Source of the DNA: an uncultured Deferribacteraceae bacterium
GTDB lineage: Bacteria; Chrysiogenota; Deferribacteres; CAMZNJ01
NCBI GenBank assembly: GCA_947313855.1
Contig: CAMZNS010000022.1
Coordinates: forward strand, 1-43,838
Reading direction: 5' to 3'
DNA length: 43,838 nt
Part shown: positions 7,503 through 20,746 of the stretch, piece after piece
Layout of the letters: every line of letters begins with the position of its first letter
How positions within the stretch are numbered: position 1 is the first letter of the stretch
Translations under genes and position numbers: made by a program
The notes under the pieces: model-generated
What the model saw: the letters and a program-made list of their open reading frames with translations, nothing else
The model's database searches: none
What the model was told of the DNA's origin: nothing

Positions 7503-7590
7503 TTGGAATAGATTATTCCATTTGGAATAGATTATTCCATTTGGAATAAATTAGCACATTTGGAATAATTTAGTATGGAATAATTTAGTA
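7503..7590. repeat. Tandem 19-bp palindromic AT-rich repeats upstream of the cas promoter
   Basis: Two perfect 19-bp copies of TTGGAATAGATTATTCCAT, each holding the dyad GGAATA-GAT-TATTCC, are followed by a diverged 19-bp copy and two shortened copies (16 and 15 bp) ending in TTTAGTA. There are no spacers, so this is not a CRISPR array. An operator array or a slippage-born repeat are both possible. Confidence 0.85.
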
Positions 7591-7642
7591 CGGACAGGCG
7601 TGTTTATTGGTAGTTGCCTCTGTGTTGCTCTGTGTTGCCCAG

Positions 7643-9037: not shown

Positions 9038-11545
9038 ATGTTTAACACTGAGCCGAAGTTTACTCAAAACGCATTGTCTATTTTGGAGAAGCGTTACCTA
9101 CATCGTGGGTTGCTTGCTGAGGAGAAGGGTGACCTTGGTCATGGTCAGACTAGTAATGCCACCGATAGTACGACCGATAGTACGACCGATAATGCCACCT
9201 CTAGTACCACCGCTAAGGCTACCGATAGTGCCACCGCTAAGGCTACCGATAGTACGACCGATAATGCCACCTCGAGTACCACCGCTAAGGCTACCGATAG
9301 TGCCACCGATAATGCCACCTCTAGTACTACTGAGACGCCTAGGGAGATGTTTATTCGTGTTGCGTCTAACTTGGCTCTAGGGGATGCTAAGTACGGTGTA
9401 AGCGACTCTGAGATTGCTTCTACGACGGGTATGTTTTACGATGAGATGGCAAGCTTGCGATTCCTACCGAACTCCCCTGCTCTTATGAATGCGAACACCT
9501 ATTTGCAACAGCTTTCGGCATGTTTTATGTTGCCTGTTGGCGATTCTTTGGGTGGAATTTTTGATTCGGCGAAAACAACGGCGATAATACATCGTTCGGG
9601 TGGTGGAACAACGTTTTCGTTTTCTCATTTGCGTCCTAGTAATATGTTGGCGTCTACAGATAAGGGTGTTTCCGGTGGTCCTGTGTCGTTCATGGGTGTG
9701 TTCAACGCTGCGACGGAGACCATTAGTCATACGGGAATACGTTGCGGTTTGAATATTGCGCGGCTTCATATGAGCCACCCTGATATTGAGGAGTTTGTTT
9801 ACGCTAAGTCGAGTGGTAGGTTGAATTTGTCGAGTTTTACCCTTGCTGTTGTTATGGATAGCGAGTTTATGGAGGCGGTGAGTTTGAATCGGAGCTACGA
9901 TCTTCGCAACCCTTCTACGGGAGAGGTTGTTGGTAGTTATGATGCTCGGGGTATGTTGGGTAAAATTGTAGCTTTGACTGTTGCGAATAGTGGCACAGCA
10001 CCGCGTATTATTTTTGATGATGGTGGTTCGGGTAGTTTGCAGAGTTATGAGGCGTGCAATCTTGGTTCTATTAATCTTGGTAAGTTTGTTGTTGGTGGCG
10101 AGGTGGACTACGATGGTTTGCGCAAGACAGTGCACGTTGCTACCCATTTTTTGGATAATCTCATCGACATGACCCGTTACCCTACTGAGGAGATAAAGTT
10201 GGCGACAACGTCTAATCGTAAGATAGGCATCGGTGTTATGGGTCTTGCTGATATGTTTGCTTTGTTGGGAGTGTCTTACGGTTCAGCTGAGTCGTTGTTG
10301 ATTGCTTCTGAAGTTATGTCGTTCATCCGCAGTGAGAGTCGTGTTAAGTCTTGTGAGTTGGGTACGGTTCGCGGTTCATTTGTTGGGTTCGAGGAGTCTG
10401 CGTTCCCGGGTATGGGTTATTCTGCCATGCGTAACGCGGCGACCACGACCATTTCGCCAACACGTTCCATCTCGATTATTGCTGATGCGTCGTCGGGTAT
10501 CGAACCTTACTTTAGTATTGCCCATCGTCGTGTTGCTAGTGGTTCAGATACGAACGCGGTAGCAATCGATTCCAATGGCAACTTCATGGATGTGGCTATT
10601 GCTGAGGGGTTTTACTCGCAGGAGCTTATGGAGTCCATCGCCGATGCGAGTAGCTTGAAGAGTATTACGGATGTGCCGGAGAGATGGCGGAATATCTTTG
10701 TGACAACTTATGATGTTGGTTCAGACGAACATATCAGCATGCAGTGGGCATTTCAGCAGCATACTGATGGTTTGGTAAGCAAAACAATCAACATGGGGGA
10801 GAACGCTACCCACGACGATGTTGAGCGTGCGATTATTCATGCCCATGATTTGGGGTGCAAAAGTATCGATATTTACGTCCACAAGGGTACGACGGAGTCA
10901 CCAGAGCCTGCTGCGTCAAGTGTTGGTGTTGCTGTTGGTGTTGCTGTTGGTGTTGGGGGTGGTGCTACCCTGCCCCCTAGCATGGACGAAATGAAACCGG
11001 TGGTACGAGCTCGCCCCAAAGTGCTTGTGGGTAAAACCATGGAGATGATGACGGGTTGTGGCAAGCTGTACGTTACCACAAATATGGACAAAGATGGGAA
11101 CGCCTTTGAGGTGTTCACGCGTATGGGTAAGGTTGGCGGATGTGCTAGTAGTTACACGGAGGCGATAGGTCGTCTTGTGTCTGTGTCCATGCGTGCGGGT
11201 ATCGGGGTGGACAAAATCTCTCGACAGCTCAAAGGGATATCCTGCCACATGCCATACGGGTTCGGTCAAAACAAGGTGCTCTCATGTGCGGACGCTGTGG
11301 GCAAGGCATTGGAAGAGGTTTACGAAGATAATGTTATGATATCGCCGAGTCGCAAGCAGGGTAATGACGCTACCATGATGGATGCCCTTTTACAGGGCAC
11401 GACGCCACCTACTCCAAGGGAGAAGCCTAGTAAGAAGGCGGTTGTTGTTCATCACCCTGGTGCGTGTCCGGAGTGTGGTGGTCCTGTGTCTCCTGTTGAG
11501 GGTTGCGATGTATGTTATTCGTGTGGTTATTCCCACTGCAACTAG
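9038..11545 (+). CDS. nrdJ: Class II (B12-dependent) ribonucleotide reductase NrdJ-like, catalytic loop missing
   Basis: About 835 aa. NrdJ signatures in order: SACFMLPVGDSL with the first redox Cys, GGGTTFSFSHLRPS, HPDIEEF, YEACNLGSINL with the second redox Cys, IGIGVMGLADMF, the ADASSGIEP loop, a C-terminal domain, and the cysteine-rich tail CPECG...CDVCYSCGYSHC used for re-reduction. Family members make deoxynucleotides using adenosylcobalamin to generate a thiyl radical on the Cys of a conserved NPCGE loop. Here IIFDD is joined to SYEACNLGS by only about eight residues; about 21 residues including NPCGE are absent in all frames. RRGAN is also changed to RCGLN. As written the protein should be inactive in canonical chemistry. 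ATG 9038 has TAGGGG upstream and fits the family start; the earlier TTG (8927) is rejected. Two internal 12-bp repeats. Confidence 0.85.
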   Translation: MFNTEPKFTQNALSILEKRYLHRGLLAEEKGDLGHGQTSNATDSTTDSTTDNATSSTTAKATDSATAKATDSTTDNATSSTTAKATDSATDNATSSTTETPREMFIRVASNLALGDAKYGVSDSEIASTTGMFYDEMASLRFLPNSPALMNANTYLQQLSACFMLPVGDSLGGIFDSAKTTAIIHRSGGGTTFSFSHLRPSNMLASTDKGVSGGPVSFMGVFNAATETISHTGIRCGLNIARLHMSHPDIEEFVYAKSSGRLNLSSFTLAVVMDSEFMEAVSLNRSYDLRNPSTGEVVGSYDARGMLGKIVALTVANSGTAPRIIFDDGGSGSLQSYEACNLGSINLGKFVVGGEVDYDGLRKTVHVATHFLDNLIDMTRYPTEEIKLATTSNRKIGIGVMGLADMFALLGVSYGSAESLLIASEVMSFIRSESRVKSCELGTVRGSFVGFEESAFPGMGYSAMRNAATTTISPTRSISIIADASSGIEPYFSIAHRRVASGSDTNAVAIDSNGNFMDVAIAEGFYSQELMESIADASSLKSITDVPERWRNIFVTTYDVGSDEHISMQWAFQQHTDGLVSKTINMGENATHDDVERAIIHAHDLGCKSIDIYVHKGTTESPEPAASSVGVAVGVAVGVGGGATLPPSMDEMKPVVRARPKVLVGKTMEMMTGCGKLYVTTNMDKDGNAFEVFTRMGKVGGCASSYTEAIGRLVSVSMRAGIGVDKISRQLKGISCHMPYGFGQNKVLSCADAVGKALEEVYEDNVMISPSRKQGNDATMMDALLQGTTPPTPREKPSKKAVVVHHPGACPECGGPVSPVEGCDVCYSCGYSHCN
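9149..9328. repeat. Fifteen 12-bp units in the nrdJ N-terminal region
   Basis: Exactly 180 bp of 12-bp units coding Thr-x-x-Ala/Thr tetrapeptides (TDST, TDNA, TSST, TAKA, TDSA), with a higher-order order repeated about every 72 bp. It lies between the start region and the ATP-cone-free catalytic part, presumably as a disordered linker. Confidence 0.95.
10922..10957. repeat. 12-bp tandem repeat in nrdJ (VGVA units)
   Basis: Three units of GTTGGTGTTGCT (the last ending GGG) code VGVAVGVAVGVG, in the linker between the catalytic barrel and the C-terminal domain. Confidence 0.85.
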
Positions 11546-11678: not shown

Positions 11679-13637
11679 CTACAGTATTTTGGTCATAAGG
11701 TTTGTGACTCTTTTTACGTAGTCTCCAGGGTTGTCCAGTGTGCCTCCTTCGGAAACGACGGCGTTATCGTAGAGTAGTTGTGCGTACCCTTTGAGGTCGT
11801 CGGAGTTTGCGTCCTTGGCGTGGAGTTGTTGCAATTTTTTCACAAGTTCGTGGTTCATGTTAATCTCCATCCCTTTTTTGGGTGGAGTGTATTCTTGTCC
11901 CATGGATTCGAGAATTCGTTGCATGTGGGGATCGGGAGCGAACCCTTGGTTTGTGAGTAGTGAGGGGTAGCTTCGCAGGCGTGTGGATGGGATAACGTCT
12001 GATACGTTGTCGGTTAGCGCCTCTTTGAGGAAGTCGACGAAGTTTGTTTCGTCGTCTGAGAGGTTTGGTTGTTCTTTGTTGTCTTCGTCGTCGTTCGTTG
12101 TTTTCGGTGTAGCGTCGGAGGCAGAGAGTAGTTGTTTCCCTTTGAATTCACCTAGTGTTCGCAATATCATGTCGTCGATGTCGTCTGTTGCGAAGATTAC
12201 TTCAAGCCCTTTGCTTTGTAGTTCTTCGATGTATGGAGATTCTTGTAGTTGGCTTCTTGATTGTCCTGTGATGTAGTGTATGTTGTTTTTGTTTTCGGGT
12301 AGTCGTTGAATGTATTCGTCCAGCGTTGTGAAGTTTCCGGGTTCGGTTGCTGTTGATTCGAATAGTAGTAGTGCGGCGACGTCTTCTTTACGTTCCATAT
12401 CGTAGTGGATCCCTTCTTTGAGTACTTTGCCGAATTCGCCGTAGAATTTTGTATATTCGTCGCGTTCATTTTTGAGTGTAGATTTTAGTGTTGCGAGTAT
12501 TTTTTTGGATATGCTTTTGCGCATCATGTCCACTTGTTTGTTGCTTTGCAGTATTTCTCTTGAGACGTTGAGTGGTAGGTCGCTGCTGTCTACCACACCT
12601 TTGACGAATCTCAAGTGTAGGGGTACAAGTTGTTCGCAGTTTTCCATGATTTGCACTCGTCGTACGTACAGTGTTGGTCCTATTTTGTAGTCTTTGTAGT
12701 AGATGTCCAGCTGTACTTTTGATGGTATAAAGAGCATGGCGTTGAATTCGTTTGTGCCTTCAGCTCGGTAGTGAATGGTTTTGAATGGTTCGAGGAAGTC
12801 TCTTGTTTGTTGTTTGTAGAATTGGTTGTATTCTTCGTCGGTAACTTCCGATTTTGGTTTCATCCACAGTGCTTGCATGGAGTTTAGAGTAACGTCTTTC
12901 ATTTCGGTGGTAGTTTCTTCGGTGGTATCAGCGTCGTCGGTATCGCTATCGGTATCGGTATCGGTATCGGTATCGGTGTTGTCAACGGGTACAACAGTTT
13001 CTTCCTGCATTATGATTGGGTATGATATGAAGTTTGAGTAACGTGTAACGAGTTCTTTGATTGTGTAGGCGTCGAGGAATTCGTTGTTGTCGTCTCCCAA
13101 GTGCAGTATAATTTCTGTGCCTTCGGTTCTTGGGTTGTCCAGTTCTACTAGGGAGTATGCACCCTCTTTCAGGGATGATTCCCATTTGATGGCTTTGGAA
13201 ATTTTGCCATTTTCGGGTACACGTTGGGATAAGACAGTCACCTTGTCGGCAACCATGAAAGAGGCATAGAATCCGACTCCGAATTGACCGATGAGGTCAG
13301 CATTATCGTCCCCCCCTTCGGCCATTTTTTCCATAAAGGCTTTCGTGCCTGAGTGTGCGATTGTTCCCAGAGCAATTTTGGCGTCTTGTAGGTTCATCCC
13401 TATTCCGTTGTCGGAAATGGTTAGAGTTTTGGCATCGTTGTCGATGTTCAGGCGTATTTCCCACTGTTTTTCGTCAACACTTTTGTCGGTCAAGGATAAG
13501 ACACGAGCTTTGTCGATGGCATCCGATGAGTTTGAGATTAGTTCACGTAGGAATACTTCTTTGTTGGAGTATAGTGAGTTGACTACGATATTTAGTAGTT
13601 GGCTCACCTCTGTTTGAAATTGAAATTGTGTACTCAT
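11679..13637 (-). CDS. htpG: Chaperone protein HtpG (Hsp90)
   Basis: 652 aa; E. coli HtpG has 624. The N-terminal GHKL ATPase domain shows NKEVFLRELISNSSDAIDKA, the DNGIGM motif and GQFGVGFYASFMVADKV; the middle domain follows from QALWMKPKSEVTDEEY and the C-terminal dimerisation domain closes it. It is a cytosolic ATP-driven folding chaperone. Between the N and middle domains lies an Asp-Thr dipeptide repeat (about 20 residues) from a 6-bp tandem repeat, in the place where eukaryotic Hsp90 has its charged linker and bacterial forms usually have little. ATG 13637 has GGAGAGG upstream. Own promoter at 13686-13714. Confidence 0.96.
   Translation of the reverse strand: MSTQFQFQTEVSQLLNIVVNSLYSNKEVFLRELISNSSDAIDKARVLSLTDKSVDEKQWEIRLNIDNDAKTLTISDNGIGMNLQDAKIALGTIAHSGTKAFMEKMAEGGDDNADLIGQFGVGFYASFMVADKVTVLSQRVPENGKISKAIKWESSLKEGAYSLVELDNPRTEGTEIILHLGDDNNEFLDAYTIKELVTRYSNFISYPIIMQEETVVPVDNTDTDTDTDTDSDTDDADTTEETTTEMKDVTLNSMQALWMKPKSEVTDEEYNQFYKQQTRDFLEPFKTIHYRAEGTNEFNAMLFIPSKVQLDIYYKDYKIGPTLYVRRVQIMENCEQLVPLHLRFVKGVVDSSDLPLNVSREILQSNKQVDMMRKSISKKILATLKSTLKNERDEYTKFYGEFGKVLKEGIHYDMERKEDVAALLLFESTATEPGNFTTLDEYIQRLPENKNNIHYITGQSRSQLQESPYIEELQSKGLEVIFATDDIDDMILRTLGEFKGKQLLSASDATPKTTNDDEDNKEQPNLSDDETNFVDFLKEALTDNVSDVIPSTRLRSYPSLLTNQGFAPDPHMQRILESMGQEYTPPKKGMEINMNHELVKKLQQLHAKDANSDDLKGYAQLLYDNAVVSEGGTLDNPGDYVKRVTNLMTKIL
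12935..12978. repeat. 6-bp tandem repeat coding the Asp-Thr linker of HtpG
   Basis: About seven units of TCGGTA/TCGCTA read as Asp-Thr/Asp-Ser on the minus strand. Confidence 0.9.
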
Positions 13638-13714: not shown

Positions 13715-13750
13715 GTTTAAGTAAAAATATACATTGTGTGTTATTTCTGT

Positions 13751-13839
13751 CGGGGTTGTGATGCTGGCGGGGTTGTGATGCTGGCGGGGTTGTGATGCTG
13801 CTCTGGCGGGGTTGTGATGCTGGCGGGGTTGTGATGCTG
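13751..13839. repeat. Five copies of a 17-bp repeat upstream of htpG
   Basis: CGGGGTTGTGATGCTGG begins at 13751, 13768, 13785, 13807 and 13824; a 5-bp CTCTG insertion separates copies three and four. It sits just after the hfq-like stop. The 17-bp unit is not a codon multiple. Confidence 0.92.
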
Positions 13840-13855
13840 GTTGGGTTGTTGGTTG

Positions 13856-14311
13856 TTATTGAACTGAGTAGATAGATGGTTTGTAGATTAGGTGGAGTGT
13901 TTTTTCGGATCGAATAAGGGTTGTTGTTTGGTCGTAAGATACGAGTTTGCCTGCGAGTCGATCCCCTGTTCGGAGTATTACGGATATTTTGGCATATTTG
14001 TTTCGTAGTTTGTTGTTGTAGAAGCGATTTTGGGCATTGGTGTTGGTATTTTCGAGTCTGTAGTCTTTGATGTTGGCGAATGATTTGGTAAAGTTGGACA
14101 TATCTTTGCCACTGGTAAAGTGTATTGCTATGCAGACGGTTTGGTGTTTTTGGATAACGGAGTCACGCATTTTTGTATCACGAATGGCAATATCAGCTTG
14201 GGAGTATGTGAGGATATATGTTTCAATGGTGAGTTTTCGCAACTTGATACAGCATTTCACTTGGTTGGTGATGATGTAGTCTAAGAAGTTGTTTTCACAC
14301 GTATGCAACAT
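13856..14311 (-). CDS. hfq: Tandem (two-domain) Hfq-like RNA chaperone
   Basis: 151 aa, twice the size of an Hfq core. Residues about 95-150 match Hfq closely: QNRFYNNKLRN (helix), ISVILRTGDRLAGKLVSYDQ (Sm1) and LIYKPSIYSV (Sm2, canonical YKHAISTV). Residues about 5-64 also align: NNFLDYIITNQ, then ETYILTYSQADIAIR against the Sm1 core, and VIQKHQTVCI against Sm2. The KH pair survives in the first half only; the second half has KP. So it looks like two Hfq protomers in one chain, which could assemble as a trimer. Hfq helps small RNAs pair with mRNAs. The long start is supported by GTGGAGGATATATG; an internal ATG at 14101 lacks such a site. Own promoter upstream. The second-half call is strong, the first-half call moderate. 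Confidence 0.75.
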   Translation of the reverse strand: MLHTCENNFLDYIITNQVKCCIKLRKLTIETYILTYSQADIAIRDTKMRDSVIQKHQTVCIAIHFTSGKDMSNFTKSFANIKDYRLENTNTNAQNRFYNNKLRNKYAKISVILRTGDRLAGKLVSYDQTTTLIRSEKTLHLIYKPSIYSVQ

Positions 14312-14386
14312 ATATCCTCCACTTTTTTTAGTTTGCTACTAATTGTACCTGTTGATTAAGTGGTGTGTATACTATTAATCTTGTCA

Positions 14387-14415
14387 ATTGTACATGAAAA
14401 AATAGTTTTAGTCAA
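14387..14415 (-). promoter_or_regulatory. Promoter of the hfq-like gene
   Basis: Minus-strand TTGACT (14410-14415) and TACAAT (14387-14392), 17 bp apart, giving a leader of about 70 nt before the strong ribosome binding site. Confidence 0.55.
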
Positions 14416-16255: not shown

Positions 16256-19200
16256 TCAACACTTTTGGTGTGATTGACATTTTTTTCGTCCTGTTCTTTT
16301 TGTGTGTGAATCAGGGCTTGGAGTTTGCTAAACAGGTTGTGTATCGTGTCAAAGTTGTGGTCGTACAGGATACTTATTTCATAGGTGCCGACAAAAGTGA
16401 ACGGTGCATCCATTTCGCTTAGTGCTTCCATGAGGTCGACTATGTTGTAAGACATTTTGTCGGAGAATTCGAGTTTCATGTGTTTTGCGGTGATTACTAT
16501 TTTTGTGACGAATAGTCGTGCTCCCCTTGCTTTGATGAGCATGATGTTTGCTAGGTTACGTACTTCGTCGCCGAATTCGCCGAAAGTGGATTCCATGCCG
16601 TAAAGTAGGTTGTTCATCTGTTCTGTGGAGTCGGCGTCTGCGAGTGCTCTGTAGTATTCAAACCGGACACGTGTGTCGTCGATGTAAGATGCTGGGATGT
16701 AGTATGGTATGCTTACGGCGGCAATATTCACAGTGGAGAAGTCTGTTGAGTGCCCTTTCATCTCTTCCAGTGCACTTTCCACCATGCGAATGAATAGTTC
16801 GTACCCTATTTTGACAGCCAATCCGCTCTGCTCTGCTCCGAGTAGGTTTCCTGCACCTCGTATTTCCAGGTCGTTCATGGCGATTTTGAATCCGCTTCCC
16901 AGTGCAGAGAGTTGTTGAATAGTGTGTATCCGTTTCCTCGCGATTTCGCTGAGAGCGGTGATATCTTTTATGAATAAGTAGGCGTGCCCTTTTTGGTAGC
17001 TTCGCCCTACTCGTCCTTTTAGTTGGTAGAGTTGTGCTAGTCCGTACATGTGTGCTTGGTTGACAATCATGGTGTTTGCGTTGGGCACATCTAGTCCGTT
17101 TTCGATTACGGTGGAAGCAACGAGGATTTGTATTTCGCCGGCGTAAAATCTGAGTAGTGTATTTTCCAGTTGTTTGATGGGCATTTGTCCGTGTGCCATG
17201 CCGATGACGGCTTCGGGGATCATGGTTTTGAGTTTGTAGACGATGCTTTCCATGCTTTGAACGTTGTTGTGTAGGTAGTACACCTGCCCGTTTCGCTGCA
17301 ACTCGAACTCAATTGCTTCACGCACCTGTGTGTTGCTTGAGATAATATGCACCCCAACCTCTTGACGCCTAGCTGGCGGTGTGTTGAGTGTTGATACGGG
17401 TCTCAGTCCTGAAAGTGATAACTGCAATGTTCTTGGTATGGGTGTGGCACTTAGCGTTAGGACATCGATATGTGTTTTCAGTTTGGTGATGCTCTCTTTG
17501 TGGCTTACGCCAAAGCGTTGTTCTTCGTCCACCACGAGTAGCCCTAAATCTTTGAAGACAACATCTTGTGAGAGGAGTCGGTGCGTACCGATGATAATGT
17601 CGATATCCCCCCTTTCCAACAGTTGAAGTATTGCTTTAAGTTCCTTAGGTGATTTAAGTCTGGATAGGTATTCGACGCGTACCGGGATATCTTTAAAGCG
17701 TTCCTTGAACTTAATAAAGTGTTGTCGAACAAGTACTGTTGTGGGTGCAATTAGTGCCACTTGTTTTGCTGATTCCACTGCTTTTGCTGTGGCACGAATG
17801 GCGATTTCGGTTTTGCCATACCCCACGTCTCCGCAAATAAGCCTGTCCATGGGTTTTGCGTTACTCATGTCGTTGTAGACGTCTTCTAGTGCTGTGAGTT
17901 GGTCGGGTGTTTCTTCGAATGGGAAGTCGGTTTCGACAATTTTGAGGAATTCCCCTTGATTGTTGAATGCATGTCCGGGTACTGTTTTACGGTCAACATA
18001 GAGTTTGAGCAGATCCATGGCGATTTTGCGTGCAACTTTGCGTGCAACTTTGCTGGCTTTGCTCCAAGCGGTACTGCGTAGGTTGCTGACGGATGGTGAG
18101 TCTGTGCCGATGTATTTTTGTACAAGGTCTATTTTTTGTATTGGAACGTAGACCATGTCGCCGGATTCGTATTCGAGTGCTAGGTAGTCCCCCTTGGATC
18201 CACCGATTTCACGGCTTACAATCCCTTTGTAGATGGCAATTCCGTAGTCGACGTGTACAACGTAGTCGCCGGTGTTGATGTCTGCAAGTGTGGTTCTGAA
18301 GGGTGAGTTTTCAACTTTGGCGTGGAATTTATTGTGTCCGAAAATCTCTTCGGGGGTAACAATAACTAATTTGAGAGTATTGAAGACTGCTCCGACCCCT
18401 ATTTTACGGGGATAAACACTGATGACATCGCCCTTTTGGGCATTATTTTGTGCGTCTTCGAGGTGTTCAATATTTTGCAGTTTTAGGTTATGGTCGTGCA
18501 TGAATTTGTCGAGAAATTCACGTTGCATCTGCGATTCTATGGTTAAAACAATCTTAAAGTTTTCCTTTAAGTATTTCTGTAACACAGCGTAGAAGCCGTC
18601 TACAGCTTTGTATTTGTTGGTTTTGTCGTAGGTAAATTCTTGTATGGATGAGTGACATTGTAGCTGTTCCCATTCCGAGTCCACGTTTTTTGCAAACTGA
18701 GTATTGGTGTGTGTTTCGATGTATTTTTCGATGGTGTGTCGTTGGGCGTAGTTTTGGGCAAAAACAGGGTCAATGCCCTTTTCAGCAATGGTTTCGTCCA
18801 TAGTGGAGTACATTTTTTCTAGAATACCTTTGTGCTCCATGGCGTCGAAAATATAAACATGGGCATTTTGCGGAATATAATCCATGAAGGTGGCGTATTC
18901 ATTGCTGTTGTGTACGAAAGGGTAGAGCCAGTAGAAGCCAGCAATTTTCCCAAATTCGGAGACACGATGTCCGATACTGCTTTTCAGTGCGTCGGGTGAT
19001 CCGCTCAGTATTTGGGCAAGGTCTGAGCCAGCAATGACAAGGTCTGTGGCGGGTAGAATAGTTACACTTGAAGTAGTGGTTGAGGTTTTTGCGTCGGTAT
19101 TATTTGTGCCATTGCTTGCTGATTTGCCTGCTGATTTGCCTGCTGATTTGCCTGCGTCTGTGTTAGCTGCTTTTACGAATATGCTAGCGGTGTCGTGTGG

Positions 19201-19909: not shown

Positions 19910-20746
19910 TTAGTCTTCTTCGTTGTTGTCGGTATTTAGCCAAGCCACTAAGTGGTCGTAGATTTTGGTTGAGAGTTCGTCATCGTTTTTGAGTTCGGTG
20001 ATATTTTTGAGTTCGTCGTCGTTAATGAGTAGGAATTCGGCAATAGTTTCGAGGTTATCGTAGAAGAGTGTTTCTTTGCCGTCAGTGATTTCTGAGATGA
20101 TTGTTGTGTCTTCGGCGATGTGCACAAATTTGATATAGGACATTGTGCATGTGTTTGCAAGTTCGATGACTTTGTCGAGTAGGTCTTCGGAGCAGTACAT
20201 GGCTGGGAATAGCACTGTATTTTGGTGGATAATGATGTCTTCGTTCTCTTCAGTGTTAGTGTTGGGGTTGGTGTCATCCATGATACAGCGGTATGAGTTG
20301 TGGTTGCTGTGAGCGATTAGTTTGGTGTCCACAAGGTTTTCCATAACGTCTTCGAGTTCTTGTTTGGAGTTGAATTCGAGTCCACCATGTAGTAGGCAGA
20401 CTTCCATGGCATTTTTGTTATTTGTGTTTAGTAGGTTGAGTGTGAAGGGGTCGTGTAGAGGGTCACCATCGATGAGATAAAGGGGGTTGAGTAGGTTTGT
20501 TGTTGCGTCTGGGTGGGGTATTGCGTGTCCTAGTGCGTCTTTGGGGTTTGGGAAATCGTCGTCAACGTTGAGTAGTGTTGTGAAGTCACTGTCGCCGCCG
20601 TGTATACTATTGAGGTAGTATGGCATAGGTGTGGTAGATTTTTCTAGGGGGTCGAATTCGTCATTATCTATGTATGTTGCAGAGCCTTCGTCGTCATGAT
20701 TGATTTCGTCGAAGCTGCCATATCTATCGTCGTAACTGTTATCCAT
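19910..20746 (-). CDS. Acidic protein of unknown function upstream of mfd
   Basis: 278 aa, rich in Asp, Glu and Asn throughout; no membrane segment, signal peptide or motif I recognise. The N-terminal 40 residues are Asp-rich and probably disordered; the rest looks like a folded alpha/beta protein with acidic surface (for example YCSEDLLDKVIELAN and YDNLETIAEFLL). It is the first gene in front of mfd, with GGGAAGG before the ATG and its own promoter. No function can be assigned from sequence. Real gene by length, start site and operon position. Confidence 0.75.
   Translation of the reverse strand: MDNSYDDRYGSFDEINHDDEGSATYIDNDEFDPLEKSTTPMPYYLNSIHGGDSDFTTLLNVDDDFPNPKDALGHAIPHPDATTNLLNPLYLIDGDPLHDPFTLNLLNTNNKNAMEVCLLHGGLEFNSKQELEDVMENLVDTKLIAHSNHNSYRCIMDDTNPNTNTEENEDIIIHQNTVLFPAMYCSEDLLDKVIELANTCTMSYIKFVHIAEDTTIISEITDGKETLFYDNLETIAEFLLINDDELKNITELKNDDELSTKIYDHLVAWLNTDNNEED

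Follow-up and report, generated by a model that had tools for sequence, protein, structure and literature searches.

Hfq units assemble into six-membered rings, which are normally homohexamers with all six RNA sites alike. In Sphingomonadales, a two-domain Hfq serves as the main Hfq of the cell and both of its domains are well kept; NCBIfam model NF010691/PRK14091, whose length and match pattern are those of a two-domain protein, presumably represents this group. The Hfq proteins of Zymomonas mobilis (ZMO0347) and of six other Sphingomonadales species have been reported to contain two Sm-like domains each; whether the Zymomonas protein forms a ring of three subunits was asked in 2010 (PMC2877685). 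Tandem Hfq in itself is already known, as the initial annotation of the locus described here had noted. Its other precedent, long Hfq proteins of Borrelia, is void: BB0268, once called 'long Hfq', is FlgV, a flagellar basal body membrane protein that is unrelated to Hfq and does not bind RNA (PMC11607428), and only the old annotation and a similar length are shared with the protein discussed below.

This protein is encoded in a window of 43,838 nucleotides (the whole stretch of DNA that was analyzed) from an uncultured Deferribacteraceae bacterium. It appears to share with the Sphingomonadales protein the presence of two Sm/Hfq domains per chain, from which a trimer could make a hexamer-like ring. 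With two units and a linker of about 20–25 residues, such a trimer could close the ring with two kinds of RNA site alternating, and this fixed alternation would distinguish a tandem Hfq from a homohexamer with its six identical sites. Membership in NF010691 was ruled out by scores: the cut-off is 270 bits, whereas tandem proteins that we found in Deferribacterales scored 72–80 bits and the window protein 20.4 bits. Also, no member above the cut-off was detected in 385 sampled genomes. In our opinion, the notable discovery is not the window ORF but the module to which it may be related, i.e., a Deferribacterales tandem Hfq family that is outside the NF010691 cut-off and has a dedicated receiver.

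The window genome is 1.34 Mb in size and also encodes a canonical Hfq (C35:19607-19792, 92.8 bits). A scan of the collection identified a sole related genome, the Deferribacteraceae-labelled MAG M_SnakePit_MAG_00002 (the sister genome), which belongs to the same genus. This MAG has been named Candidatus Rimicarispirillum nautilei; the organism lives as a symbiont in the midgut of the deep-sea vent shrimp Rimicaris exoculata, and its genome is reduced to 1.25–1.36 Mb (PMC9636832). We infer that the window genome represents the other named Rimicarispirillum species.

The Hfq-like gene is a real ORF at 13856..14311 on the minus strand, with ATG at 14311 and a stop codon that ends at 13856. It encodes a predicted two-domain protein of 151 amino acids, and a collinear ORF in the sister genome is 92% identical to it. 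The initial annotation had given the same coordinates, and all residues quoted in it were found in the 151-residue translation; however, the strand had to be corrected to minus because the plus-strand reading of 13856-14311 contains stops. A Shine-Dalgarno sequence, GGAGG (14316..14320, minus strand), is located 4 nt before the ATG and is also present in the sister genome. Further upstream, a strong sigma-70-type promoter, TTGACT-N17-TACAAT (14387..14415, minus strand), could be read directly, and its 29 bases are identical in the sister genome. Neighboring genes are all in the same direction, in the order mfd, a CoA-disulfide-reductase-like gene with a rhodanese domain, the Hfq-like gene and htpG. 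A search of the window against Rfam gave no match. Between the two species, dS was about 0.35 in each half of the gene, and dN/dS was 0.114 for the first half, 0.088 for the second half and 0.105 for the whole gene. These values indicate similar purifying selection on both halves: the first half, too, is translated, and the constraint on it is about the same as that on the Hfq half. Translation only from the internal ATG at 14101, on which the initial annotation would have given up its reading, is disfavored by GGAGG at the first ATG, by the promoter shared with the sister genome and by dN/dS of the first half.

The second half of the protein (residues 94–151; 13859..14032, minus strand) corresponds to an Hfq/Sm domain. 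It matched PF17209 with 35.9 bits (E 5.9e-9, residues 100–149), exceeding the Pfam gathering score of 27, and has the alpha-beta5 order in the structural model. The protein scored 39.1 bits against TIGR02383, which is under the curated equivalog cut-off of 61.7, and nearly all of its sequence matches in PDB were Hfq chains. As judged by sequence, residues 94–150 are a clear Hfq domain, in agreement with the original claim. Sm1 of this half (LAGKLVSYDQ) is in register and keeps Gly34 and Asp40; both are replaced in the first half. In Sm2 (LIYKPSIYSV), the YKH signature is absent, the canonical His57 being replaced with Pro (YKP). Canonical Hfq proteins (PF17209, TIGR02383), such as that encoded elsewhere in the same genome, resemble this unit in Sm fold and sequence but have a single domain per chain and an intact YKH.

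The first half (residues 1–75; 14087..14311, minus strand) is a putative degenerate Hfq-like unit, followed by a linker (residues 76–93; 14033..14086, minus strand). Residues 1–92 alone matched no Pfam family. Residues 6–63 align in register with canonical Hfq, and in global profile alignment the score was above that of shuffled sequences: none of 2000 shuffles scored as high when the genome's own canonical Hfq was in the profile, and when this copy was left out, 21 of 20000 shuffled sequences and 5 of 3334 segments of real proteins did so. The corresponding z was 3.7 to 4.7 and p was about 0.001, a value that is suggestive only, because it came from one among several tests tried. A profile-HMM version gave 40 of 4611, with part of the score derived from another register (residues 57–80), and local HMM scores were near zero and split over two competing registers. 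Besides, the first half did not score above shuffles against the profile of tandem-family N domains (406 of 3000; 22 of 300 in a second run). Alignment with canonical Hfq showed that Gly34 of Sm1 is replaced with Thr and Asp40 with Ser. The relationship of this half to Hfq is thus suggestive and not proven by sequence. The initial view that it follows the Hfq pattern held with regard to register and p value and was weakened by the absence of a family match and the loss of key Sm1 residues. The statement that the first half 'keeps' the Lys-His pair is doubtful. In the first halves of all 25 tandem relatives described below, Lys is followed by Arg, Lys, Asn or Gln, and His in the window protein is therefore more likely a regained residue or a coincidence than a retained one.

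Structure prediction with AlphaFold2, using ten relatives (12 sequences), gave the alpha-beta5 order twice in series. The first unit was predicted as H5-15, E19-24, E27-36, E40-43, E50-53 and E59-64 with pLDDT of about 50–70, and was followed by a helix (H68-79) and then by another helix and five strands, with pLDDT mostly 64–83 in the second unit. The input alignment placed the first helix of the window protein wrongly, and confidence in the first unit is modest. When only the two sequences were used, mean pLDDT was 32 and the first half was under 50, too low for the model to be of use. A Foldseek comparison of the better model with PDB had Hfq as best matches, with a target-based TM of 0.65–0.82 and E of about 1e-3 over approximately 60 columns; because the output omits which half matched, this does not count as independent evidence for the first half. 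A model in which the first 90 residues are not an Sm fold would have spoken against the initial annotation; the predicted order is that of Sm, but pLDDT is only about 50–70. Considering the tandem relatives and the doubled alpha-beta5 order on the one hand, and the badly degenerate first half on the other, we regard two Hfq-like units in one chain as the best reading of sequence and model.

We examined the phylogenetic spread of tandem Hfq by a profile search over 51 Deferribacterota genomes. Unmistakable full-length tandem Hfq proteins of 166–174 amino acids were found in 25 of these genomes, belonging to families f2–f6 and f9, and all 25 encode a canonical Hfq as well. Isolated first halves of three of these proteins matched PF17209 with 23.3, 35.0 and 39.7 bits. 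With the tandem profile at E 1e-18, none was detected outside the order in the 385 sampled genomes. Family f10 had single Hfq only, as did the phage collection, in which no tandem form was found, and the 20 genomes of families f7 and f8, several of which are over 95% complete, gave no match to either kind of Hfq at E 1e-3. Canonical Hfq was present in all families of the class except f7 and f8. The two units of the tandem proteins differ in residues with known roles (E. coli Hfq numbering): first units no longer have Tyr25 and Gln8 but mostly retain Gln41, and second units keep Gln8 and have Asp or Asn in place of Gln41 and Thr, Ser or Asn in place of His57 (YKT/YKS/YKN). A linker motif, HPKHTRPPMQDIF, and a C-terminal tail, GEIIKYDxER, occurred in some form in 25 of 25 proteins.

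The window protein resembles this family in its apparent two-unit layout, length and Hfq second unit, in being extra to canonical Hfq and in its occurrence in the same class. However, it is at most approximately 21% identical to the tandem proteins, ends at SVQ without the tail, lacks the conserved linker motif (as compared with the 25 free-living relatives) and has no adjacent receiver gene. The tandem model matched it over both halves with 28.6 bits (E 8.9e-7, model positions 31–151), mostly in the second unit, and 25.7/27.5 bits of the tandem-model score came from the C half.

The gene directly after tandem Hfq abuts or overlaps it in 25 of 25 cases and codes for a stand-alone receiver of approximately 122 residues. 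This receiver matched PF00072 with 104.8 bits and has a complete set of phosphorylation residues (DD-D-T-K) and very conserved segments (DDEEHTRLGYAEVL, ITAFG and LNKPVRA). Outer neighbors of the pair vary between families, and we therefore consider tandem Hfq and receiver a conserved unit. The proximity of tandem Hfq to a signaling protein in free-living relatives suggests an RNA chaperone under signal control, and the coupling in 25 of 25 cases within one bacterial order, if functional, would link two-component signaling directly to an RNA chaperone. No description of an Hfq with a receiver partner was found in the open papers searched, and phrase searches for tandem Hfq likewise gave no relevant paper. 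Several other features of these loci were observed. The two-gene unit corresponds to loci L053-L065 (e.g., L053:6157-7037) in the 25 Deferribacterales genomes. Conservation of the receiver's first helix (EEHTRLGYAEVL) is unusually high, as might be expected if it had a single fixed partner. In 9 of 13 loci (L053:7032-8624 and equivalents), the receiver is adjoined by a convergent gene for a protein of 530–650 amino acids, in which the only Pfam match was to a 2Fe-2S ferredoxin domain (PF00111) at the N terminus.

Orthologs of the receiver (209–213 bits) were absent from ten tested genomes without an intact tandem gene, in which the best matches were 79–92 bits. The window and sister genomes are two of these ten, their best matches being 84–85 bits and located in long ORFs, and the gene downstream of the window Hfq-like gene is htpG instead of a receiver. 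It appears that the receiver was lost in this lineage, although its absence could also reflect a gap in the MAGs, the window genome being 90.7% and the sister genome 86% complete; the gene is missing in both. The window protein may be viewed as a natural experiment: the joint absence of tail, linker motif and receiver suggests that tail and linker are the parts that serve the receiver.

In a tree of Mfd, the long branch of the shrimp symbionts fell within the class, among families f2, f7 and f8, and f10 was placed outside the class. The simplest reading is that the module is ancestral, because it is carried by f9, f3–f6 and f2, and the window gene would then be a diverged remnant. We favor this interpretation with some reserve, i.e., the window ORF is probably a degenerate, partner-less derivative of an ancestral Deferribacterales tandem Hfq-receiver module. 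Sequence alone is no proof of its orthology to the tandem family: its N half did not reach significance with the tandem N profile, and its Hfq domain did not join the tandem C domains in a domain tree. In free-living relatives, three tandem chains would most likely close a six-unit RNA-binding ring, and the phosphorylated receiver would tune its action. The symbiont seems to have lost the receiver gene and the tail, and apparently signal control as well, and the first unit would have decayed. With its own promoter, the symbiont protein would probably serve canonical Hfq as a constitutive or simplified accessory that binds RNA, and what selection has retained of it probably binds RNA or assists canonical Hfq. 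It is tempting to speculate that the chaperone is gated by phosphorylation, with three chains forming a pseudo-hexamer to whose conserved tail or linker the receiver docks and the symbiont keeping an ungated, half-degenerate version, but we offer this only tentatively.

A different origin of the gene would be a lineage-specific duplication of canonical Hfq, giving a second Hfq whose N-terminal domain is unrelated or was fused independently, while the tandem-receiver module was simply lost. The window C domain scored 32.7 bits with canonical Hfq versus 28.1 bits with the tandem C profile, and the domain tree kept it apart from tandem C domains; however, this tree of about 60 columns, with a very long window branch (1.92), leaves room for orthology. 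Gene neighbors that differ from those of free-living relatives and the rise of the first-half score when the genome's own canonical Hfq is in the profile also fit a duplication. We nevertheless consider it rather unlikely, as the lineage is nested among tandem-bearing families and the second Hfq would have about the same length and two-unit layout as the tandem proteins.

It may also be asked whether the first half is an Sm unit at all. If the protein had only one Hfq domain, preceded by a non-Sm extension whose resemblance to Hfq arose by chance, this would explain why residues 1–92 had no Pfam match, why local HMM matches were near zero in two registers and why key Sm1 residues are missing. 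But the global alignment outscored 99.9% of the shuffled sequences and 99.85% of the segments from real proteins, the model had the alpha-beta5 order and relatives with the tandem layout exist, making such an extension improbable. Finally, a small genome (1.34 Mb), a degenerate first half and a lost partner are what might be expected of a pseudogene decaying out of a reduced genome. With frame, promoter and Shine-Dalgarno sequence intact in two species, dS of about 0.35 and dN/dS of about 0.1 in both halves, this explanation is hardly credible. A degenerate derivative of the ancestral module remains our preferred interpretation.

Repeats were frequent across the entire window. A 17-base repeat array (CTGGCGGGGTTGTGATG) occupies 13747-13849, between the Hfq-like gene and htpG, and the same gap in the sister genome contains another, C-rich repeat. 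Housekeeping genes contain in-frame insertions of tandem repeats; these were found in htpG (12937-12977, Asp-Thr) and mfd (19112-19155, Ala-Gly-Lys-Ser), and in-frame Thr/Ala/Asp/Ser repeats (9154-9327) near the start of a gene for an adenosylcobalamin-type ribonucleotide reductase. A short palindrome-like tandem repeat, TTGGAATAGATTATTCCAT, was present at 7503-7594 in approximately 3.4 copies. Also, a 278-amino-acid ORF before mfd (19910-20746), which has no Pfam match, is conserved in the sister genome.
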